64,000 nt of DNA, taken from the NCBI RefSeq assembly GCF_008973485.1, contig NZ_CP031223.1, positions 2,232,001 to 2,296,000 of the forward strand, given 5' to 3'. The position numbers were made by a program, and so were the translations under genes. Below, piece by piece: positions 5,432 to 26,920 of the stretch (position 1 is the first letter of the stretch; each line of letters begins with the position of its first letter). The notes beneath the pieces were generated by a model that saw only the letters and a program-made list of their open reading frames with translations, had not been told where the DNA came from and searched no databases. This DNA comes from Psychrobacillus glaciei. Its GTDB lineage: Bacteria > Bacillota > Bacilli > Bacillales_A > Planococcaceae.

Positions 5432-6427
5432 ATGAAAAAATGGTTAATCGTATTATGTTCGACATTATTGATTGCAGGTTGTAGTAATCCGGAATCAGCA
5501 TCAGAAACGAAAAATAAAGACACACACTCTCTGAAAAAAGTATCTGTCGTACTTGATTGGACACCTAACACGAATCATACCGGATTATACGTGGCAAAGG
5601 AAAAGGGTTATTTTAAAGAAGAAGGATTAGATGTGGACATCATTATGCCAGGTGACGCTGGAGCTGATCAGCTTGTTGCTTCAGGTAAATCCGAGTTTGG
5701 CGTAAGCTATCAGGAATCGATCACACAAGCACGTATACAAGACGTTCCTCTTGTTTCGATTGCAGCCATTATTCAACACAATACATCAGGTTTTGCTTCA
5801 CCAGCTGCGAAGAACATTGTTACACCAAAGGACTTTGTAGGTAAAACATACGGGGGCTGGGGCTCACCTGTTGAAAAATCTGTTATTTCTTCTTTAATGA
5901 ATAAAGAAAATGCCGATGTAAATAAAGTTTCTATAGTTAATATGGGAGATACTGATTTCTTTACAGCTGTGAAACGAGATATCGATTTCGCATGGATTTA
6001 TTATGGTTGGACTGGTGTAGAGTCAGAGCTGCGTGGAGAGAAGCTCAATATGATCTACCTAACAGAATACTCTGATAAACTCGATTATTACACGCCAGTT
6101 CTGGCAACTAATGAAAACATGATAAATGAAAACCCAGATACAGTAAAAGCCTTTGTGAAAGCTGTTTCCAAAGGGTATGAATTTGCTATTAATAATCCAT
6201 CTGATGCTGCCGACATTTTAATAAAAACAGTGCCTGACTTGGATCCAAAGCTTGTTAAAAAAAGTCAAGAATGGCTAGCCTCTAAATATCAAGACGATGC
6301 ACCAAGATGGGGCGAGCAAAAACAAGAAGTATGGGAAAATTATGCTTCATGGATGTTTGACAATGGGCTGCTTGAAAAACAGCTTGATGCTCAAAAAGCA
6401 TTTACAAATAATTTTTTACCACAATAG
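5432..6427 (+). CDS. thiY: ABC transporter substrate-binding lipoprotein, ThiY/NMT1-like
   Basis: A 331-residue lipoprotein of the NMT1/THI5 family that captures a pyrimidine thiamine precursor outside the cell. The signal peptide ends in the lipobox LIAGC (Cys17). The motif VVLDWTPNTNHTGLYVA and the downstream EGLDVDI are typical of this branch. The ATG at 5432 is chosen because AGGAGGAATAGGA precedes it; a frame 7 codons longer overlaps that site. The TPP riboswitch and following permease and ATPase genes support thiamine-precursor uptake (hydroxymethylpyrimidine or its formylamino form). The exact ligand is inference. Confidence 0.9.
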   Translation: MKKWLIVLCSTLLIAGCSNPESASETKNKDTHSLKKVSVVLDWTPNTNHTGLYVAKEKGYFKEEGLDVDIIMPGDAGADQLVASGKSEFGVSYQESITQARIQDVPLVSIAAIIQHNTSGFASPAAKNIVTPKDFVGKTYGGWGSPVEKSVISSLMNKENADVNKVSIVNMGDTDFFTAVKRDIDFAWIYYGWTGVESELRGEKLNMIYLTEYSDKLDYYTPVLATNENMINENPDTVKAFVKAVSKGYEFAINNPSDAADILIKTVPDLDPKLVKKSQEWLASKYQDDAPRWGEQKQEVWENYASWMFDNGLLEKQLDAQKAFTNNFLPQ

Positions 6428-21141: not shown

Positions 21142-21849
21142 GTTCTGGAGCAAATATAATTTGTTTAAAAAATCCCACCTGATTATCCTTCTTTTCTATA
21201 AATAATAATACTATTCAAAATAATCTATGTATGAATTCAATCTCGCTTTTGGCAGACTTCACCCTTTGTTGAAGTTGTCTCTTCTTGATCAAGCGGTGAT
21301 CTTGCTCCACGATATTATTAAAGTACTTTTGTTGGCGGATTTGCATTCCCTCTGGTATGCTTTTCTCCTTTTTCAACTGTTCTATTGCTATCGGATAAGC
21401 TGGATTCTTATCAACTGTGATAATACGTGGCTTAGAAACACGATTAGACCGCAAAGCTTTCTTGAAGAAATCCTTTGCAGCCTGTTTATCTCTTGTTTAA
21501 CTCAGATAAAATTCAATTGTGTTCCCTTCAGAATCTACTGAACGAAACAGATACATCTATTTTCCTTTTACTTTGATGTATGTTTCATCGACTCTCTATG
21601 AATCGATTGTTCGCTTCAGATATGGCTGTATTCTTGTATTTAATTCAGGTCCATATTGATAAACCCAACACATAATCGTTGTATGAGCCATCAGTAAACC
21701 CCGTTCTTCCATCATTTCAGACAGAAAATATCTCCACATGAATAGTTGTTCGTTTTTCATACTATTCACGCACCTTTTTGAGTAATAATGTTACTATACT
21801 CACACTTTAGAGGTGAATTGCAGTTGTATAGATATTTTTGCACCAGAAC
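21142..21849 (-). mobile_element. IS6-family insertion sequence, decayed copy 2
   Basis: A 708-base element with ends GTTCTGGAGCAAATAT (left, one mismatch) and ATATTTTTGCACCAGAAC (right). It is closely related to copy 1 at 16135-16991 and in the same orientation, but has lost about 150 bases in two internal deletions. Together the two copies bracket the SDR gene and the DUF1641-NDH-2 operon, 4.15 kb. Confidence 0.88.
21215..21760 (-). pseudogene. IS6-family transposase, deleted and interrupted
   Basis: The frame starts properly (ATG at 21760, KNEQLFMWRYF), then jumps directly to EMMEERG: the DNA-binding part seen in copy 1 is deleted. In-frame stops replace Trp in DSWRVDETY and in GKWMYL and the codon after FYLS. 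A second deletion joins RLIKKR directly to QLQQRVKS, removing about 27 residues around MLGL. Longest intact piece is 21215-21454. Clearly dead. Confidence 0.88.
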
Positions 21850-22353
21850 TTTCCCTTGTTGTCCCTGTATATGGTGCTCATATAATTTAAAAGAGAGAAA
21901 AGACTTTTGTTGCTCCGACCTGCTGGCTCAAATAATCTGGCTGATCCTATAATGCAAAAGAAATTAATGACACAACCAAAATCTCAACTATTAATTGTGT
22001 ACTATATAATTCACTAGCCTACTGTAAAAAAAGATAATATTTATGATGAGCCCAGAATGAAAACTGCTAGTCTTTTATAGCAATAAAATTCATATTTAAC
22101 GTTTTGGGGATCAATGATTTTTAACTTGATGGGCATGCGGTGGTACCCAAAAGGGATTTGATGAAGCAAAGAAATTAGCTGAACTTTTTTCGGGTTATTC
22201 CAGTATAGGAGAATTTGAATATCAATTACTTATCATTTTGGAGAGATGAGTATAACTTTACTTAATTGAATAAGAATGAATAGGACCATATATTGTCTGG
22301 TATGTCTTCGAGAAGTTCCTATGTACCTAAAGTTTTATTAGACTGTTGCATTG
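21850..22353. other. 500 bases with a short coding remnant
   Basis: Between IS6-type copy 2 and the thiol oxidoreductase terminator. A plus-strand frame ending at a TGA at 22249 reads GFDEAKKLAELFSGYSS and IGEFEYQLLIILER, which looks like the 3' end of a real gene whose front is missing, possibly cut off by the insertion. The family was not recognised. Confidence 0.35.
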
Positions 22354-22402
22354 AAAAAAAGAGCCGTTTCCCCGCACACTTTACGCGGGATAACAGCTCT
22401 TC
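22354..22402 (-). terminator. Terminator of the DsbA/FrnE-like gene
   Basis: A long GC-rich hairpin: AGAGC and GCTCT at the base, GTTTCCCCGC against GCGGGATAAC above, with TTTTTTTCA on the minus strand. It begins 7 bases past the stop codon. Confidence 0.9.
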
Positions 22403-22408
22403 TGCACA

Positions 22409-23119
22409 CTATTTGTTCTTGCAAATGCCATTCTCACAAACTGGAACTACTTCGACTGAAGTGGGGTTCAGTACGGTTAACGGCTGTGATTCTCCCCATG
22501 CCGTCTCAAGTGCTTTGAGGAACACATTCGCCGGCTGCGCACCGGAAATAGCATATTTGCGATCGATGACGTAAAAAGGTACTCCACTTACTCCTATGCT
22601 TTCGCCCTTGAGATGATCTGCACGCACTTCGTCGGTGAACTGATCGCTTATTAGCATCTTCGCTGTAGCTTTCGGATCAAGTCCTTCCTCGGCAGCAATT
22701 GCAATCAACGTTTCATGAATGCCGACATGTTTGCATTCGGTAAAATAAGCTTTGAACAACAGCTCGGCTACCTCATTATTTTTACCATGCTGCTCCGCAA
22801 AGTGCAAAAGACGGTGAGCATCCAACGTATTTGTCAGCTGAAGTGTATCAAACCTAAGGTCCAAGCCATCTGCTTCAGCCTGTTTGGCAAGCCTCTCGTG
22901 TATCTCCTTTGCTTCTTCCCAGCTCATTCCAGACCTGGCGGAAAGCGCATCGTATGCATTATACGTAATATCTTTCCTCGCGTTTTTATTCAGTTGAAAG
23001 CTTTTGTAAACAATTTGTACATGATCTTTATGAGCAAATTGCTCAAGTCCGGCCTCGAGACGGCGTTTCCCAATATAACAGAATGGACAAGCAATGTCTG
23101 ACCACACTTCCACTTGCAT
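22409..23119 (-). CDS. DsbA family oxidoreductase, FrnE-like
   Basis: A 236-residue cytoplasmic protein of the DsbA/FrnE group of the thioredoxin superfamily. The redox motif is Cys11-Pro-Phe-Cys14 in SDIACPFCYIGKRRLE, the helical insert runs to about residue 160, and the cis-Pro loop is SGVPFYVI. C-terminal GAQPANVFLKALETAW is typical. Two extra cysteines end the chain (VCENGICKNK). No signal peptide. GGAGGG lies 6 bases before the ATG, which decides against a frame 17 codons longer. Two copies of the MarR-type operator AGTCAA-N5-TTGACT bracket its promoter (23289-23355), linking it to the neighbouring MarR, DUF3238 and azoreductase genes: a thiol- or quinone-stress role is inferred. Confidence 0.88.
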   Translation of the reverse strand: MQVEVWSDIACPFCYIGKRRLEAGLEQFAHKDHVQIVYKSFQLNKNARKDITYNAYDALSARSGMSWEEAKEIHERLAKQAEADGLDLRFDTLQLTNTLDAHRLLHFAEQHGKNNEVAELLFKAYFTECKHVGIHETLIAIAAEEGLDPKATAKMLISDQFTDEVRADHLKGESIGVSGVPFYVIDRKYAISGAQPANVFLKALETAWGESQPLTVLNPTSVEVVPVCENGICKNK

Positions 23120-23288
23120 TTGAAACCCTCCTTCATACAGCAATACTTTCAGCATATTATATGTTTTCATTTATTTAACACGAACCATTTTTATGGATTC
23201 GCTAATGTTATTACTGGGACTTTTCTTTAGCGTATAACCCATTCAGGACTTGCACCGAGTGAGTATCTAACAGCTTAACTCTGCTGCG

Positions 23289-23355
23289 AGTCAACTTGGT
23301 TGAGTCTACTTTGTATAGTACAGTTAATCTAGAAACAAAGTCAATTTGATTGACT
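23289..23355 (-). promoter_or_regulatory. Two MarR-type operators flanking the promoter of the DsbA/FrnE-like gene
   Basis: Site A is AGTCAACTTGGTTGAGT (23289-23305), site B AGTCAATTTGATTGACT (23339-23355). On the minus strand TTGACT of site B acts as -35, TACTAT follows after 18 bases as -10, and site A covers the region just downstream. The identical design is found at 24213-24278 before the DUF3238 genes. Site B touches the stop codon of the 38-residue peptide gene. Binding by the adjacent MarR protein is inferred. Confidence 0.75.
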
Positions 23356-23470
23356 ACATTTTAGAAGGTTTGATGTATGAACCATCATGTAAACACTGAG
23401 ATGCAACTGCGAAGAATATCGAAGAAAATAATGCAACAAACACTAGAAATAGCATTACAAACTTTTTCAT
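23354..23470 (-). CDS. Small secreted or membrane peptide, 38 residues
   Basis: MKKFVMLFLVFVALFSS starts a short peptide with a positively charged N-terminus, one hydrophobic stretch of about 22 residues and a polar tail containing a single Cys (ASQCLHDGSYIKPSKM). The AVA-S end of the hydrophobic part looks like a signal peptidase site, so a 13-15 residue secreted peptide is possible. GAGGTG lies 11 bases before the ATG. It sits between the MarR gene and the operator pair of the oxidoreductase gene on the same strand. No family recognised. Confidence 0.5.
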   Translation of the reverse strand: MKKFVMLFLVFVALFSSIFFAVASQCLHDGSYIKPSKM

Positions 23471-23650
23471 AAAATTATCTTCACCTCTAAATGTGCATTT
23501 GCGATATTCTCCACTAATTTTTTTAACAATCCATGAGATTAATCTCCAATTCAAACGAACGATTCGAATGTTGAACTAGTTTGTATAGTCCATATACACA
23601 AGTTTAACTTAACCCCGTTTCCCCGGAAGTTTATAAGTTCATTATTCAAT

Positions 23651-23680
23651 AAAAAAAGCTGCCATGTAAATGCAGCTCTG
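23651..23680 (-). terminator. Terminator of the marR gene
   Basis: AGCTGC (23658-23663) pairs with GCAGCT (23672-23677), and the minus strand continues with TTTTTTTATT. It lies 38 bases past the MarR stop codon. Confidence 0.85.
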
Positions 23681-23717
23681 TTAGGACAAATTTAAACACT
23701 CTTAAAAATCCTCTTTA

Positions 23718-24191
23718 TTACCAAACAGGTCTTATCCTTGATAACAAATTACCTTCATTTGCTTCATAAACTAATTTTGTTAAATCTTCTTTGAGCATTT
23801 GCATTCGTTCAGCACCTATGTTTTCAATCCAACGTTGCTCAATATCTGTTAGTATCTTCTCTTTTGCTTGCACTACTAACCACCCTCGTTCGGTCAAAAC
23901 AATAATTTTCCCTCTTTTATCTGTGGGATGAGCTTTACGTATTACATAACCACATTTTTCGAGATAATCCACCATTTTACTCACAGCTTGCTTTGTAATT
24001 CCTAAATGATCGGCTAGTTCGATACCTGTTGCTCCATTAGAAGTAAGACATTTAAACACAAAACCATGCACAGGTCTAATATCTCCAAATCCCAATTCAC
24101 TCAATCTGTTATGTAGTTCATGAATCGATGCACTAAAAGATAATGACAACAGCGATGTAAGATCTAATTCACTAAAAACTTGATGATTCAT
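23718..24191 (-). CDS. MarR family transcriptional regulator
   Basis: A 157-residue winged-helix regulator of the MarR family. The recognition helix region is TGIELADHLGITKQAVSKMVDYLEKCGYVIRKAHPTDKRGKIIVLTERG (about 62-112) with the DKRGK wing typical of the family; flanking helices form the dimer. Cysteines at the KCLTSNG and LEKCGYV positions could sense thiols, but this is speculation. ATG at 24191 is preceded by AAGGAGG; the frame continues upstream to a TTG that overlaps an operator. It is divergent from the DUF3238 genes, and operators lie in the shared gap, so it probably represses itself as well as both target units. Confidence 0.9.
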   Translation of the reverse strand: MNHQVFSELDLTSLLSLSFSASIHELHNRLSELGFGDIRPVHGFVFKCLTSNGATGIELADHLGITKQAVSKMVDYLEKCGYVIRKAHPTDKRGKIIVLTERGWLVVQAKEKILTDIEQRWIENIGAERMQMLKEDLTKLVYEANEGNLLSRIRPVW

Positions 24192-24212
24192 ACTTAAAAC
24201 CTCCTTAACCTT

Positions 24213-24278
24213 AGTCAATTAGGTTGACTTTATTTACTTTGCATTGTACTATACACATTGTAGTCAATCAAGTTGACT
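24213..24278. promoter_or_regulatory. Two MarR-type operators in the marR / DUF3238 divergent promoter
   Basis: Site C is AGTCAATTAGGTTGACT (24213-24229), site D AGTCAATCAAGTTGACT (24262-24278); both are perfect 6-bp arms with a 5-base spacer, 49 bases centre to centre. On the plus strand TTGACT of site C is a -35, followed after 17 bases by TACTAT (24247-24252) as -10, and site D lies just downstream. This mirrors 23289-23355, including the shared core TGTACTATACA / TGTATAGTACA. Repression by the divergent MarR protein is inferred. Confidence 0.8.
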
Positions 24279-24333
24279 ATTTTCGAGAGATTTAGAACTC
24301 ACCGAAAAAATAAAGAAATTATGGAGGTTTCTC

Positions 24334-24918
24334 ATGACTAACATCGTAAAAATTAGAGGAAGTGTATTTGCTCCGTATGCTTGGTTGGAACCTATTAAAG
24401 ATCCTTCAACAGGAAGAATCTTAGAATATACTGGTGATGCGCGTGAATTTACACCGAATGCTGTAAATACTATGCGTTCAAGACTAGAGCAAGAAGTGAT
24501 TATTGACTTTTATAAAAAAGAAATTTTTTCACATGCAAATGCTTGTATCGTAACTGTAAAAATTACAAATCCAGATGGTTCTATCGAGTATAACAAGGGA
24601 AAAACAGGTACAGACAATATTAAATGCACAAATGTTGTGTGGGGAGATGACGAAGTTTCTTTTAAAATGAGTGCTAGTGCCAACAATCCTTTGAATACAG
24701 CAGCACCTGCAGCTGACTATGTATTAACTATACACGTTAAAAAAAGTGGGGTTACACATATTGAAGGTTCCCATGATGGTTTTCCTTGTTATGAATTTTA
24801 TAAACAAACAGATTTCGGTCCATTTGAATTAATATATACACATGATTTCAGAAAAACTGGTGACACTCCGGCAGCACTAGCTGGGGAAATGGAATACAGT
24901 TTTAAAACGACCATCTAG
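24334..24918 (+). CDS. DUF3238-like protein, paralogue 1
   Basis: A 194-residue soluble protein that I assign tentatively to the DUF3238 family of Bacillales, function unknown. It starts with VKIRGSVFAPYAWLEPI and has conserved blocks GDAREFTPNAVNTMRSRLEQEV, WGDDEVSFKMSASANNPLN, ADYVLTIHV, HDGFPCYEFYKQ and THDFRKTGDTPAALAGEMEYSF, in an all-beta pattern. No signal peptide or catalytic motif is evident; HDGFPCYE holds a conserved Cys. It is first in a MarR-operator-controlled unit and is followed 142 bases on by a close paralogue. GGAGGTTTCTC precedes the ATG. Confidence 0.7.
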   Translation: MTNIVKIRGSVFAPYAWLEPIKDPSTGRILEYTGDAREFTPNAVNTMRSRLEQEVIIDFYKKEIFSHANACIVTVKITNPDGSIEYNKGKTGTDNIKCTNVVWGDDEVSFKMSASANNPLNTAAPAADYVLTIHVKKSGVTHIEGSHDGFPCYEFYKQTDFGPFELIYTHDFRKTGDTPAALAGEMEYSFKTTI

Positions 24919-25060
24919 ATATATAGACTAAGTAAAAGTGTAGAAGCAGAAAATATTCAAATAAACTCATTATTAATACGGAAGAAATTGGGATTTGTTT
25001 TGCTAAATGAATCTATATGATTAGACAAGATAAAAATTTGAAACTTTAGAGGTGTTTTTC

Positions 25061-25645
25061 ATGAATACGATCGTTAAATTTAGAGCAAGTACATTTATTC
25101 CAATGGCCTGGACTGAGCCTAAGAAAGGTACTCAAACAGGAAACACAATCGAATTCGAAGGTGATTCACGTGAATTTACACCATATGCGGTCAACGCTAT
25201 GCGTTCTAGAATGGAACAAGAAGTAGTCGTTGATTTTTATAAAAAAGAGATTTTCACATATGCGAATTCTGGCATAACAACAGAAAAAATCACGACTCCT
25301 GATGGTTCCGTTACTAAAAGAACAGGAAAAGCTAGTACGGAGCGTATTTTGTGCACGGACATTGTATGGGGAGAGGATGACGTCAAGTTTCAAATGAGTG
25401 CTAGTGCTAGCAACCCACTAAATGAACTTGCTCCTCCCGTTGATTATCTATTAACTGTACACGTCAAAAATGACGGTACTGGCGATATTCACGGTGAACA
25501 TGACGGATTCCCTTGTTATGAAATTTATAAGCAAGTAAATTTTGGGCCGTTTGAAGAAATTTATACACATGACTTTAGAAAAACGGGTGATACACCTGCA
25601 GCCATGGCTGGTGACATGGAGTATAGTTTTAAAAAGAAATTGTAA
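25061..25645 (+). CDS. DUF3238-like protein, paralogue 2
   Basis: A 194-residue protein of the same length as its upstream neighbour and clearly its duplicate: the blocks GDSREFTPYAVNAMRSRMEQEV, WGEDDVKFQMSASASNPLN, VDYLLTVHV, HDGFPCYEIYKQVNFGPFEEIYTHDFRKTGDTPAA are shared, while the middle segment differs more. The ATG at 25061 has GAGGTG 9 bases upstream; the GTG of that site also opens a frame three codons longer. It may be co-transcribed with paralogue 1 and with the azoreductase gene 57 bases on. Function unknown. Confidence 0.7.
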   Translation: MNTIVKFRASTFIPMAWTEPKKGTQTGNTIEFEGDSREFTPYAVNAMRSRMEQEVVVDFYKKEIFTYANSGITTEKITTPDGSVTKRTGKASTERILCTDIVWGEDDVKFQMSASASNPLNELAPPVDYLLTVHVKNDGTGDIHGEHDGFPCYEIYKQVNFGPFEEIYTHDFRKTGDTPAAMAGDMEYSFKKKL

Positions 25646-25702
25646 AGATAATAAGAAATCAAAATATCACAACATAAGAGCTAGCAACAGGAGGAAAAAA
25701 GA

Positions 25703-26329
25703 ATGACAACAGTTTTATTTGTAAAAGCAAACAACAGACCAGCCGAACAATCGGTGAGTGTGAAATTATATGATGCCTTTTTAGCAAGCTTTAAAGAATC
25801 TCATCCAGATGATACAGTGGTAGAACTTGATTTATACAATGAAGAATTGCCATATGTAGGAGTAGATATGATTAACGGTACATTTAAGGCTAGTAGAGGA
25901 TTGGATTTAACAGCAGAAGAAGCAAAAACAGTCGCAGTTGCTGATAAATATTTAGACCAGTTCCTTGCTGCTGATAAAGTTGTGTTTGGATTCCCATTAT
26001 GGAATTTAACAATCCCAGCTGTACTACACACATATATTGACTATTTAAACCGAGCGGGTAAAACATTTAAATATACACCAGAAGGTCCAGTAGGTCTTAT
26101 TGGACATATGAAAATTGCATTATTAAATGCAAGTGGCGGGGTATATTCTGAAGGACCAAAAGCTGATGTTGAAATGGCAGTTAAATATGTAGCAAGTATG
26201 ATGAGCTTCTTTGGTGTAAACGATCTAGAGAAAGTCGTGATTGAAGGCCACAATCAGTTTCCAGATAAAGCAGAAGAAATTATTGCCACAGGTCTGGAAA
26301 AGGCTGTTCAAGTAGCAAGTACGTTCTAA
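25703..26329 (+). CDS. azoR: FMN-dependent NADH-azoreductase
   Basis: A 208-residue flavodoxin-fold NADH:quinone/azo reductase. N-terminal VLFVKANNRP and SVSVKLYDAF form the FMN phosphate site, FGFPLWNLTIPAVLHTYIDYLNRAGKTFKYT is the flavin-binding core, and IALLNASGGVY the isoalloxazine loop. In Bacillus subtilis such enzymes detoxify quinones under MarR-type repressors (YodB, MhqR); here it is the last gene of a unit whose promoter carries two MarR-type operators, giving the same logic with a different operator. AGGAGGAAAAAAGA precedes the ATG. Confidence 0.9.
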   Translation: MTTVLFVKANNRPAEQSVSVKLYDAFLASFKESHPDDTVVELDLYNEELPYVGVDMINGTFKASRGLDLTAEEAKTVAVADKYLDQFLAADKVVFGFPLWNLTIPAVLHTYIDYLNRAGKTFKYTPEGPVGLIGHMKIALLNASGGVYSEGPKADVEMAVKYVASMMSFFGVNDLEKVVIEGHNQFPDKAEEIIATGLEKAVQVASTF

Positions 26330-26355
26330 TTAGCAAAACATTTTCACTAAATATG

Positions 26356-26393
26356 GCAGTACCACACTTTTATAGCGGTGGTACTGCTTTTTT
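26356..26393 (+). terminator. Terminator of the DUF3238-azoR unit
   Basis: GCAGTACCAC pairs with GTGGTACTGC around a 12-base loop and is followed by TTTTTTT. Confidence 0.93.
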
Positions 26394-26394
26394 A

Positions 26395-26575
26395 TTCGCA
26401 TATCTCGCTACCGAGAGCTGTGTCACAGTCTCCGTAGTCAGTAAATTTCACAGGATTAATATAGAACTGGTTCTCATCTTGCTCAATGCGCGGACGGCGA
26501 CACAGTAGGCCAATCGTTCATTGTGACATGGAGATGTGATGATAAATGCCATTCTTTAGTCCCACTTTATCTATC
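26395..26575 (-). pseudogene. Coding remnant of unknown family
   Basis: On the minus strand an open stretch reads LCRRPRIEQDENQFYINPV, KFTDYGDCDTALGSEICE and then a stop. It is clearly protein-like but has no start, no ribosome site and ends just before the azoR terminator. It probably is the 3' end of a gene lost together with the neighbouring ferredoxin reductase. No family was recognised. Confidence 0.35.
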
Positions 26576-26920
26576 TTATATACTGTTAAAAAGATCTGTA
26601 CTATGCGGTAAGTGTTTTTTCGCAGTCTGTTCGATGTAAAGTCCTACTTCACCAAAACCGGTAGCAATCAGCTTCACTTCCCCATCATAAGTATTTAGGT
26701 AGCCAACCGCATAAATACCCTCTATGTTTGTTTCTACGAGGGAGTTCACCACGATGAAATTCTTTTCGATTTCCAATCTCCACTCTTTAATTGGTCCCAA
26801 TGATGACTTGAATCAGTAGTTAACGATAATATCATCTACATCTAAAATTTCTTTTTCACCTTCCGTATTACAGATGACGATTTTGGTGGCGAAGATTTTG
26901 TTGTTGACAGGTCACTTATA
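26576..26920 (-). pseudogene. C-terminal fragment of a YumC-type ferredoxin-NADP reductase
   Basis: Translation gives TEGEKEILDVDDIIVNY, a TGA stop, then FKSSLGPIKEWRLEIEKN, ETNIEGIYAVGYLNTYDGEVKLIATGFGEVG. This matches the NADPH-binding end and the C-terminal FAD motif of thioredoxin-reductase-like ferredoxin-NADP reductases of Bacillales (YumC). The N-terminal two thirds are absent, the conserved Gly after VNY is a stop, and GD of the AGD motif is GY. The longest open piece is 26576-26800. Non-functional. Confidence 0.75.

Follow-up and report, generated by a model that had tools for sequence, protein, structure and literature searches.

The window, by which we mean the whole 64,000-nt stretch of DNA analysed here, carries a gene for a MarR-family regulator and, divergent from it, two DUF3238 genes and azoR. 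A promoter region that we call module 2 (24213-24278) sits between marR on the minus strand and the DUF3238-DUF3238-azoR unit on the plus strand, and a second region, module 1 (23289-23355), faces a frnE-like gene of the DsbA family (Table 1). Compared loci and genomes carry labels of the form L### and G###. Each module contains a pair of copies of the palindrome AGTCAA-N5-TTGACT, three of them exact and one with a single mismatch, at a spacing of 50 bp in module 1 and 49 bp in module 2. A first-pass annotation of this DNA had placed all four sites correctly, at 23289 (the copy with one mismatch), 23339, 24213 and 24262, and its operator spacing of 49-50 bp and its spacers between -35 and -10 are recovered here (18 bases toward frnE, 17 toward DUF3238). 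The two modules, which it described as identical, are only similar, with 77 identities in about 105 aligned columns, and absent from it were the opposing, marR-ward promoter in each module and the marR relic beside module 1.

Table 1. Features of the marR locus, in window coordinates.
Feature	Position	Strand	Remarks
frnE-like DsbA-family gene (PF01323)	22409..23119	-	downstream of module 1
Operator A', module 1 (AGTCAACTTGGTTGAGT)	23289..23305		one mismatch
Predicted opposing (former marR) promoter, module 1	23296..23324	+	TTGGTT-17-TACAGT
Predicted promoter toward frnE	23315..23344	-	TTGACT-18-TACTAT; leader of about 190 nt to the frnE ATG
Operator B', module 1 (AGTCAATTTGATTGACT)	23339..23355		0 mismatches; minus-strand arm serves as the predicted -35 for frnE
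Second marR copy, relic (ribosome site plus opening codons)	23359..23387	+	matches the Brevibacillus porteri (L100) marR start at 26/29 bases
Possible intrinsic terminator after marR	23655..23679	-	GAGCTGC stem, GCAGCT, T run
marR	23718..24191	-	157 aa from ATG; MarR-family winged helix; recognition helix LGITKQAVSKMVDYLEK
Operator B, module 2 (AGTCAATTAGGTTGACT)	24213..24229		0 mismatches; arm is the predicted -35 toward DUF3238
Predicted promoter toward DUF3238-DUF3238-azoR	24224..24252	+	TTGACT-17-TACTAT; conservation
Predicted promoter toward marR	24243..24271	-	TTGATT-17-TACAAT; conserved -10 block
Operator A, module 2 (AGTCAATCAAGTTGACT)	24262..24278		0 mismatches; contains the predicted marR -35
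DUF3238 protein a (PF11579)	24334..24918	+	profile match; about 60% identical to solved structure 3c5p
DUF3238 protein b (PF11579)	25061..25645	+	profile match
azoR, FMN-dependent NADH-azoreductase	25703..26329	+	NF010075, 392.5 bits, cut-off 188

The exact palindrome is strongly over-represented at this locus, with three copies in the window against 0.03 expected from 100 dinucleotide shuffles, none of which reached three. No further exact match exists anywhere in the 4.35-Mb genome, so that, for exact copies of the 17-mer, the earlier statement that the motif occurs nowhere else in the window extends genome-wide. When one mismatch is allowed, the genome contains 15 sites and a reversed control pattern also gives 15, which makes the other 11 one-mismatch sites background; the two modules thus represent the full detectable set in this genome, and we claim no further regulon member. 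At up to two mismatches the window holds eight sites against 4.9 expected, which is not significant (12 of 100 shuffles reach eight).

In module 2, the two predicted promoters are interlocked. The marR-ward TTGATT is made up of the centre and one arm of operator A, and the opposing -10 boxes overlap (24243-24248 and 24247-24252). Judging from the distance to the -10 boxes, transcripts are expected to start near 24259 toward DUF3238 and near 24236 toward marR. Each operator would thereby overlie one promoter's -35 and the opening bases of the other promoter's transcript, with operator A spanning about +3 to +19 of the predicted DUF3238 transcript and operator B about +7 to +23 of the predicted marR transcript. 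Module 1 is laid out likewise, with predicted promoters TTGACT-18-TACTAT toward frnE and TTGGTT-17-TACAGT in the opposing direction, whose -10 boxes also overlap. Because a general promoter scan of 22500-26000 returned 10 promoter-like sites against 12.0 in shuffles, and hence no excess, the promoter reading rests on conservation. An Rfam search of 22000-26600 returned no RNA element at E 0.1.

The paired arrangement follows marR closely. In all 15 marR-bearing genomes among 261 of the family, an operator pair adjoins marR at a spacing of 49 with at most one mismatch per site. Conversely, a pattern of one full and one core operator matches 14 of the 261 genomes, all of them marR genomes (the reversed control matches one), and a stricter pattern of two full operators matches seven; the absence of marR from non-matching genomes was checked within this family. 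The full-plus-core pattern is also found in seven of 398 genomes of a class sample, all seven with marR, against none for the control; for G000 and G075 the evidence for marR is the family marR search. A scan with one genome per species gave 66 loci, comprising 51 close homologs (L072-L122, MarR 59-88% identical to the window's), one decaying copy (L125), one fragment (L134) and 13 distant homologs. The close loci come partly from family-search genomes, so these counts overlap. Directly before marR, 50 of the 51 close loci, from Bacillales and Clostridia, carry the operator pair at no more than two mismatches per site. At L121, where the MarR is 59% identical and has the same recognition helix, no operator was found.

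Across the 51 modules formed by these 50 loci and the window, the spacing is 49 in 48 and 50 in three. The 48 modules of spacing 49 conserve the operator arms at 1.87 and 1.94 bits per column and the -10 block at 1.63 bits per column, as opposed to 0.43 in the 60 bases beyond operator A. Read toward marR, the N5 of operator A is CTTGA in 41 of these modules and TTTGA in seven, and thus has one orientation in all 48. Such asymmetry is expected if the marR -35 lies inside operator A, and is not explained by a symmetric dimer. A core-operator pattern was also run on the whole genomes behind 40 of the 51 close loci, the remaining 11 (L077, L081, L097, L103, L107, L110, L111, L117, L088, L093 and L099) being mostly family-search genomes and second copies, with one MAG. 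The pair occurs in 35 of the 40 genomes and the control in none; marR is present in 29 of the 30 loci returned, the remaining one being an extra module before azoR in L087, and further places were compared by sequence alone. The five genomes with no pattern match are that of L121 and those of L089, L118, L120 and L122, whose operators carry mismatches.

The regulator itself is a clear member of the MarR family, with PF12802 (E 9.2e-13) and PF01047 (E 1e-9) both above their curated cut-offs. For this family, a palindromic operator of 16-20 bp near the promoters of both regulator and target is described (PMC10458429), and the 17-bp palindromes at both predicted promoters fall within that size. 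Among the 12 NCBIfam MarR equivalog families listed, which include BilQ, MarR, FabT, SlyA, HpaR and TcaR, all score below cut-off, the best being BilQ (39.1 bits, cut-off 125). No HxlR match, as a DUF24/HxlR domain would give, was found at E 0.001, the best Pfam families being MarR_2 and MarR, and no solved structure shares the DNA-binding segment at E 1e-6. A conserved redox cysteine of the YodB/CatR/QsrR type was considered and rejected: 28 of 50 homologs have a cysteine at the position of window residue 47, and 18 of the 50 have none in the stretch read, which makes a thiol switch unlikely as a general mechanism.

The gene is patchily distributed, being present in 15 of 261 family genomes at E 1e-20, with an internal stop in the G188 gene, and its tree mixes Bacillaceae, Caryophanaceae and Paenibacillaceae rows, with 27 of 49 inner branches unresolved. 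On plasmids, we found distant actinobacterial relatives only (12 records, all below 60% identity). A possible terminator after marR looks as though it would keep the gene apart from module 1 and frnE farther downstream on that strand; its stem energy is not exceptional (z -1.12; 28 of 200 shuffles equally good).

More distant MarR proteins allow the operator to be related to the recognition helix. We compared 24 further loci, 15 from the species scan and nine (L171-L179) from the 12 plasmid records, of which H2, H5 and H9 were set aside as apparent near-duplicates of H1, H4 and H8 by organism, identity and coverage. At these 24 loci, the exact half-site pattern GTCAA-N5-TTGAC occurs 18 times in upstream windows (-600 to +30, a range of our choosing; 15.1 kb in total) and not once in the other 205.7 kb; at up to one mismatch the counts are 26 and eight. 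One of the 18 exact sites belongs to L125, the close-clade copy. For a count by helix, L125, which is decaying, and L134, a 26-residue fragment, were left out and L121 was added. The exact site lies upstream in nine of the 11 loci whose MarR has the helix ITKQA[VA]S (L123, L124, L126, L127, L129, L130, L133, L135 and L171) and in none of the 12 whose MarR does not; L121 and L132 have the helix and no exact site, and four of the 12 non-helix loci (L128, L175, L177 and L178) have a one-mismatch site. The nine MarRs are only 26-43% identical to that of the window and come from several phyla, including Siphonobacter, Pseudonocardia, Streptomyces, a Silvanigrellales MAG and a Thermoplasmata MAG. 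The association between helix and operator has a p of 7e-5 as counted and 0.002 after near-duplicates are collapsed, for a rule drawn after seeing the same data and for rows that are partly related.

In Siphonobacter (Bacteroidota), two or three operators lie between marR and an HlyD-type gene (L126:5596-5658, and the same region of L127, L129 and L130). This membrane-fusion gene, assigned by Pfam on L126 only, is divergent from a marR with the same helix, and the operator copies suggest control of an export pump. Look-alike palindromes are also repeated in three viral contigs (L168:5849-5910, AGTCAAGTGAGTTGACT; L169:1899-1960, AGTCAACCGGCTTGACT; L170:2261-2323, AGTCAATTCGATTGACT), loci in which tblastn at E 1e-5 detects no relative of the window marR. 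Those of L168 and L169 lie inside an ORF that by eye resembles a phage replication protein, and they are possibly origin repeats.

Two operators that overlap both predicted promoters of a divergent pair form an architecture already known from MexR, SCO3205 and SydR; the operator sequence found here is different. The MexR arrangement, GTTGA-N5-TCAAC, has the opposite orientation to AGTCAA-N5-TTGACT. In Pseudomonas aeruginosa, the MarR-family repressor MexR has two sites, PI and PII, each a palindromic GTTGA pair, over the promoters of mexR and the divergent operon mexAB-oprM (PMC9892617); the layout is thus shared, whereas its half-sites and its efflux target differ from the operator and the DUF3238-azoR unit of this locus. 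Likewise, SCO3205 of Streptomyces coelicolor has two pseudopalindromic operators serving the regulator and the divergent sco3204, but with the consensus TTnAAnnnTCAA and another target (PMC3737563). In the SydR / SMa2023 system of Sinorhizobium meliloti, two identical inverted repeats lie in a divergent intergenic region and SydR represses each half of the pair; it differs in its repeat, TATCGCGATA, and senses through a conserved cysteine, C16 (PMC11633110), whereas 18 of the 50 homologs here show no cysteine in the stretch read.

MhqR of Bacillus subtilis and Staphylococcus aureus, a MarR-type repressor of the azoreductase azoR2 that functions in quinone detoxification, is a parallel in target and also belongs to Bacillales; in the parts of the two sources available, DUF3238 is not among its named targets (PMC6798810, PMC10458429). 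Its operator is described there as a 9-9 bp inverted repeat, TATCTCGAA-aTCGAaATA, over the start site (PMC6798810). The module sequences are different, which rejects the MhqR box as the identity of these operators and agrees with what the first-pass annotation had stated. Rv2887 and AcsR were also rejected as matches, since their operators are described as different (PMC3317779, PMC5526998, PMC13118786). Among the matches listed from the open-licence literature, from which subscription journals are mostly absent and whose texts were available in part, we recognised no description of an AGTCAA-N5-TTGACT operator.

Of the reference genes lying within 500 bp of marR and divergent from it, the closest is DUF3238 in 41 of the 51 close loci and azoR in six, with neither in four (L083, L106, L108 and L121), and azoR is present somewhere in the locus in 36. 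Among 200 sampled family genomes, full-length DUF3238 (E <1e-100) was found in 13, each of which also has marR, and the weaker matches in other genomes are different, mostly longer frames. A structural model of the DUF3238 protein (mean pLDDT 81.6) matches only 3c5p at E <0.001, and that entry gives no function; the next VIA-align rows (Taspase1, Z up to 7.5) fall in the tool's "common" range, and a function by fold was accordingly rejected. In the open-licence literature we found no mention of DUF3238 or BAS0735. Beside azoR, a short ORF (26576-26800, minus strand) resembles the end of a thioredoxin-reductase-like protein and is probably a gene remnant, its matches being weak (TIGR01292, E 0.001; Pyr_redox_2, E 0.004).

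Directly after operator B' of module 1, on the side away from frnE, lies what reads as the beginning of a second marR, with a similarity score matched by none of 2000 shuffles and none of 2959 random 80-mers from the window. Its frame begins MNHHVNTEM, as compared with MNHQVFSEL in the window marR, and then diverges. Because this stump adjoins the module, module 1 looks like a detached duplicate of a marR-divergent module that has been captured by frnE, a feature of the locus that is new here. The spacing of 50 is also found beside an intact marR in L072, L092 and L093. By identities, the sequence closest to module 1 is that of L092 (80, compared with 77 for module 2); by score it is that of L091 (52, compared with 45). 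These margins are too small to name the donor. Duplication and decay of marR are both seen elsewhere: two copies are present in the genomes of Paenibacillus macquariensis (L072/L093) and Clostridium gasigenes (L084/L088), and in Neobacillus rhizosphaerae (L125) a copy is decaying in place, its start codon lost beside a module that is kept.

Four genomes have a further module within the cluster, facing frnE in the window, DUF3238 in L086, and azoR in L087 and L090. The mean scores for a marR relic at the last three are 10.9, 9.9 and 7.6, respectively, against 17.4 for module 1 (one side tested); no clear relic is present there, so that the same origin as module 1 is not required. In L087, DUF3238 and azoR are separated by a DsbA-family gene, and L090 has such a gene at the same place, split into two pieces. 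This is a separate association and supports frnE as a target. Close relatives of the window's FrnE are lacking from the genomes sampled, the best homologs being 50% identical in the 261 family genomes and 53% in the 40 others. By the patterns used, which miss modules with more mismatches than allowed, no second frnE-facing module was found in the 261 family, 398 class-sample and 40 locus genomes. The expectation that the motif would precede orthologous genes is borne out for DUF3238 and azoR, and its frnE half depends on this one genome. That the frnE module is seen in a single genome, where operator A' is weakened and the predicted leader measures about 190 nt, makes control of frnE the weakest step of our proposal. 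In Bacillus sp. AFS088145 (L086:5596-5711), whose marR pairs with the window marR in the tree (97/86), three operators stand in a row before DUF3238, starting at 5596, 5646 and 5695, the first with one mismatch.

Two further observations concern the surroundings of module 1. About 1 kb from frnE, an IS6-family transposase fragment (21215-21454, minus strand) scores 54.9 bits with NF033587, below the cut-off of 125, and 39.9 bits with PF13610, above the cut-off of 27. Together with the mixed marR tree, it fits horizontal movement, without proving it. A small ORF with a signal-peptide-like start (MKKFVMLFLVFVALF; 23354-23473, minus strand), with no convincing family match, overlaps the marR relic in antisense at its 3' end and terminates at operator B'; it has the appearance of a gene truncated when a rearrangement put module 1 in place.

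Based on the observed sequences, their geometry, their conservation and the relic, we propose that MarR is an autorepressor acting at the interlocked promoters of module 2, and that module 1 is a captured copy of a marR module that adds frnE to the local regulon, a reading that we regard as highly probable as a whole. Dimer binding, repression and ligand release are inferred by analogy with MarR biology. One MarR dimer would bind each AGTCAA-N5-TTGACT palindrome, so that two dimers would frame the promoters of module 2, one on operator B over the DUF3238-DUF3238-azoR -35 and the beginning of the marR transcript, and one on operator A over the marR -35 and the beginning of the DUF3238 transcript. 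Since the -10 boxes overlap, RNA polymerase would be expected to serve one direction at a time. Binding of an inducer would release the dimers and switch on both directions. We suppose that the inducer is probably a quinone or a similar electrophilic aromatic compound, a guess made from azoR alone. At module 1, all of the copied marR but its ribosome site and first codons would have been lost, and frnE would now be driven from the side that formerly served a DUF3238 or azoR unit.

The operator pair tracks marR, and distant MarRs with the same helix share its half-sites, which makes the adjacent MarR, as the first-pass annotation had presumed, the likely binder, a well-supported assignment. That the palindromes are instead bound by another regulator, such as a different MarR or a two-component system, and stand beside marR by coincidence, is very improbable: the repeats of look-alike palindromes in viral contigs devoid of this marR would agree with it, but among the 261 family genomes the pair occurs only in those that have marR, every pattern-matching genome among the 398 and the 40 has marR, and the half-site is common to same-helix MarRs of several phyla. 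It is also conceivable that the second operator of each pair permits looping or cooperative contacts and recruits polymerase, such that MarR would activate one direction while repressing the other. The strictly kept spacing of 49-50 bp and the mutual exclusion imposed by the overlapping -10 boxes could be read in this way, but the spacing is already fixed by promoter geometry, that is, by -35 elements embedded in operators and by -10 boxes that overlap. Moreover, the operators cover -35 elements and start regions, which is the usual place for repression, and we consider activation improbable.

A further alternative to our proposal is that MarR acts at module 2 only, and that module 1 is a decaying relic, with frnE transcribed from elsewhere or constitutively. 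The mismatch in operator A', the marR stump itself, the long predicted leader and the lack of a frnE module in the other genomes searched would all be accommodated by such decay. However, operator B' is exact, operator A' retains 11 of 12 arm bases, and the -35/-10 pair facing frnE is intact; a promoter scan gives no other minus-strand site in 23120-23640, and the DsbA-family gene recurs in the same clusters in L087 and L090. We therefore judge confinement of MarR to module 2 to be unlikely, while giving it more weight than either of the other alternatives.

If capture of module 1 by frnE occurred as proposed, this locus preserves a readable fossil of a second target joining a local regulon, in the form of a whole promoter module with the stump of its regulator. 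These data also name a concrete operator for a MarR subfamily of many Bacillales and some Clostridia, and provide the uncharacterised DUF3238 family with a regulatory setting beside an azoreductase. A broader reading, which we advance tentatively, is that the ITKQA[VA]S subfamily of MarR proteins has kept GTCAA-N5-TTGAC across phyla as its targets changed, and that in Bacillota the two-operator promoter spreads by duplication, loss of the regulator and capture by a neighbouring gene. The targets would possibly be DUF3238 and azoR in Bacillota, an HlyD-type export gene in Siphonobacter and others elsewhere. Were this the case, the regulon would grow by transfer of whole promoter modules as opposed to the point-wise evolution of sites, and the link between helix and operator, which is directly testable, would help to predict the operators of other MarR proteins. 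On the Streptomyces plasmids of L175 and L177, a related marR lies between a FAD-binding oxidoreductase gene and a type III polyketide synthase-methyltransferase pair, a gene setting that hints at aromatic or quinone-like ligands in the wider family.
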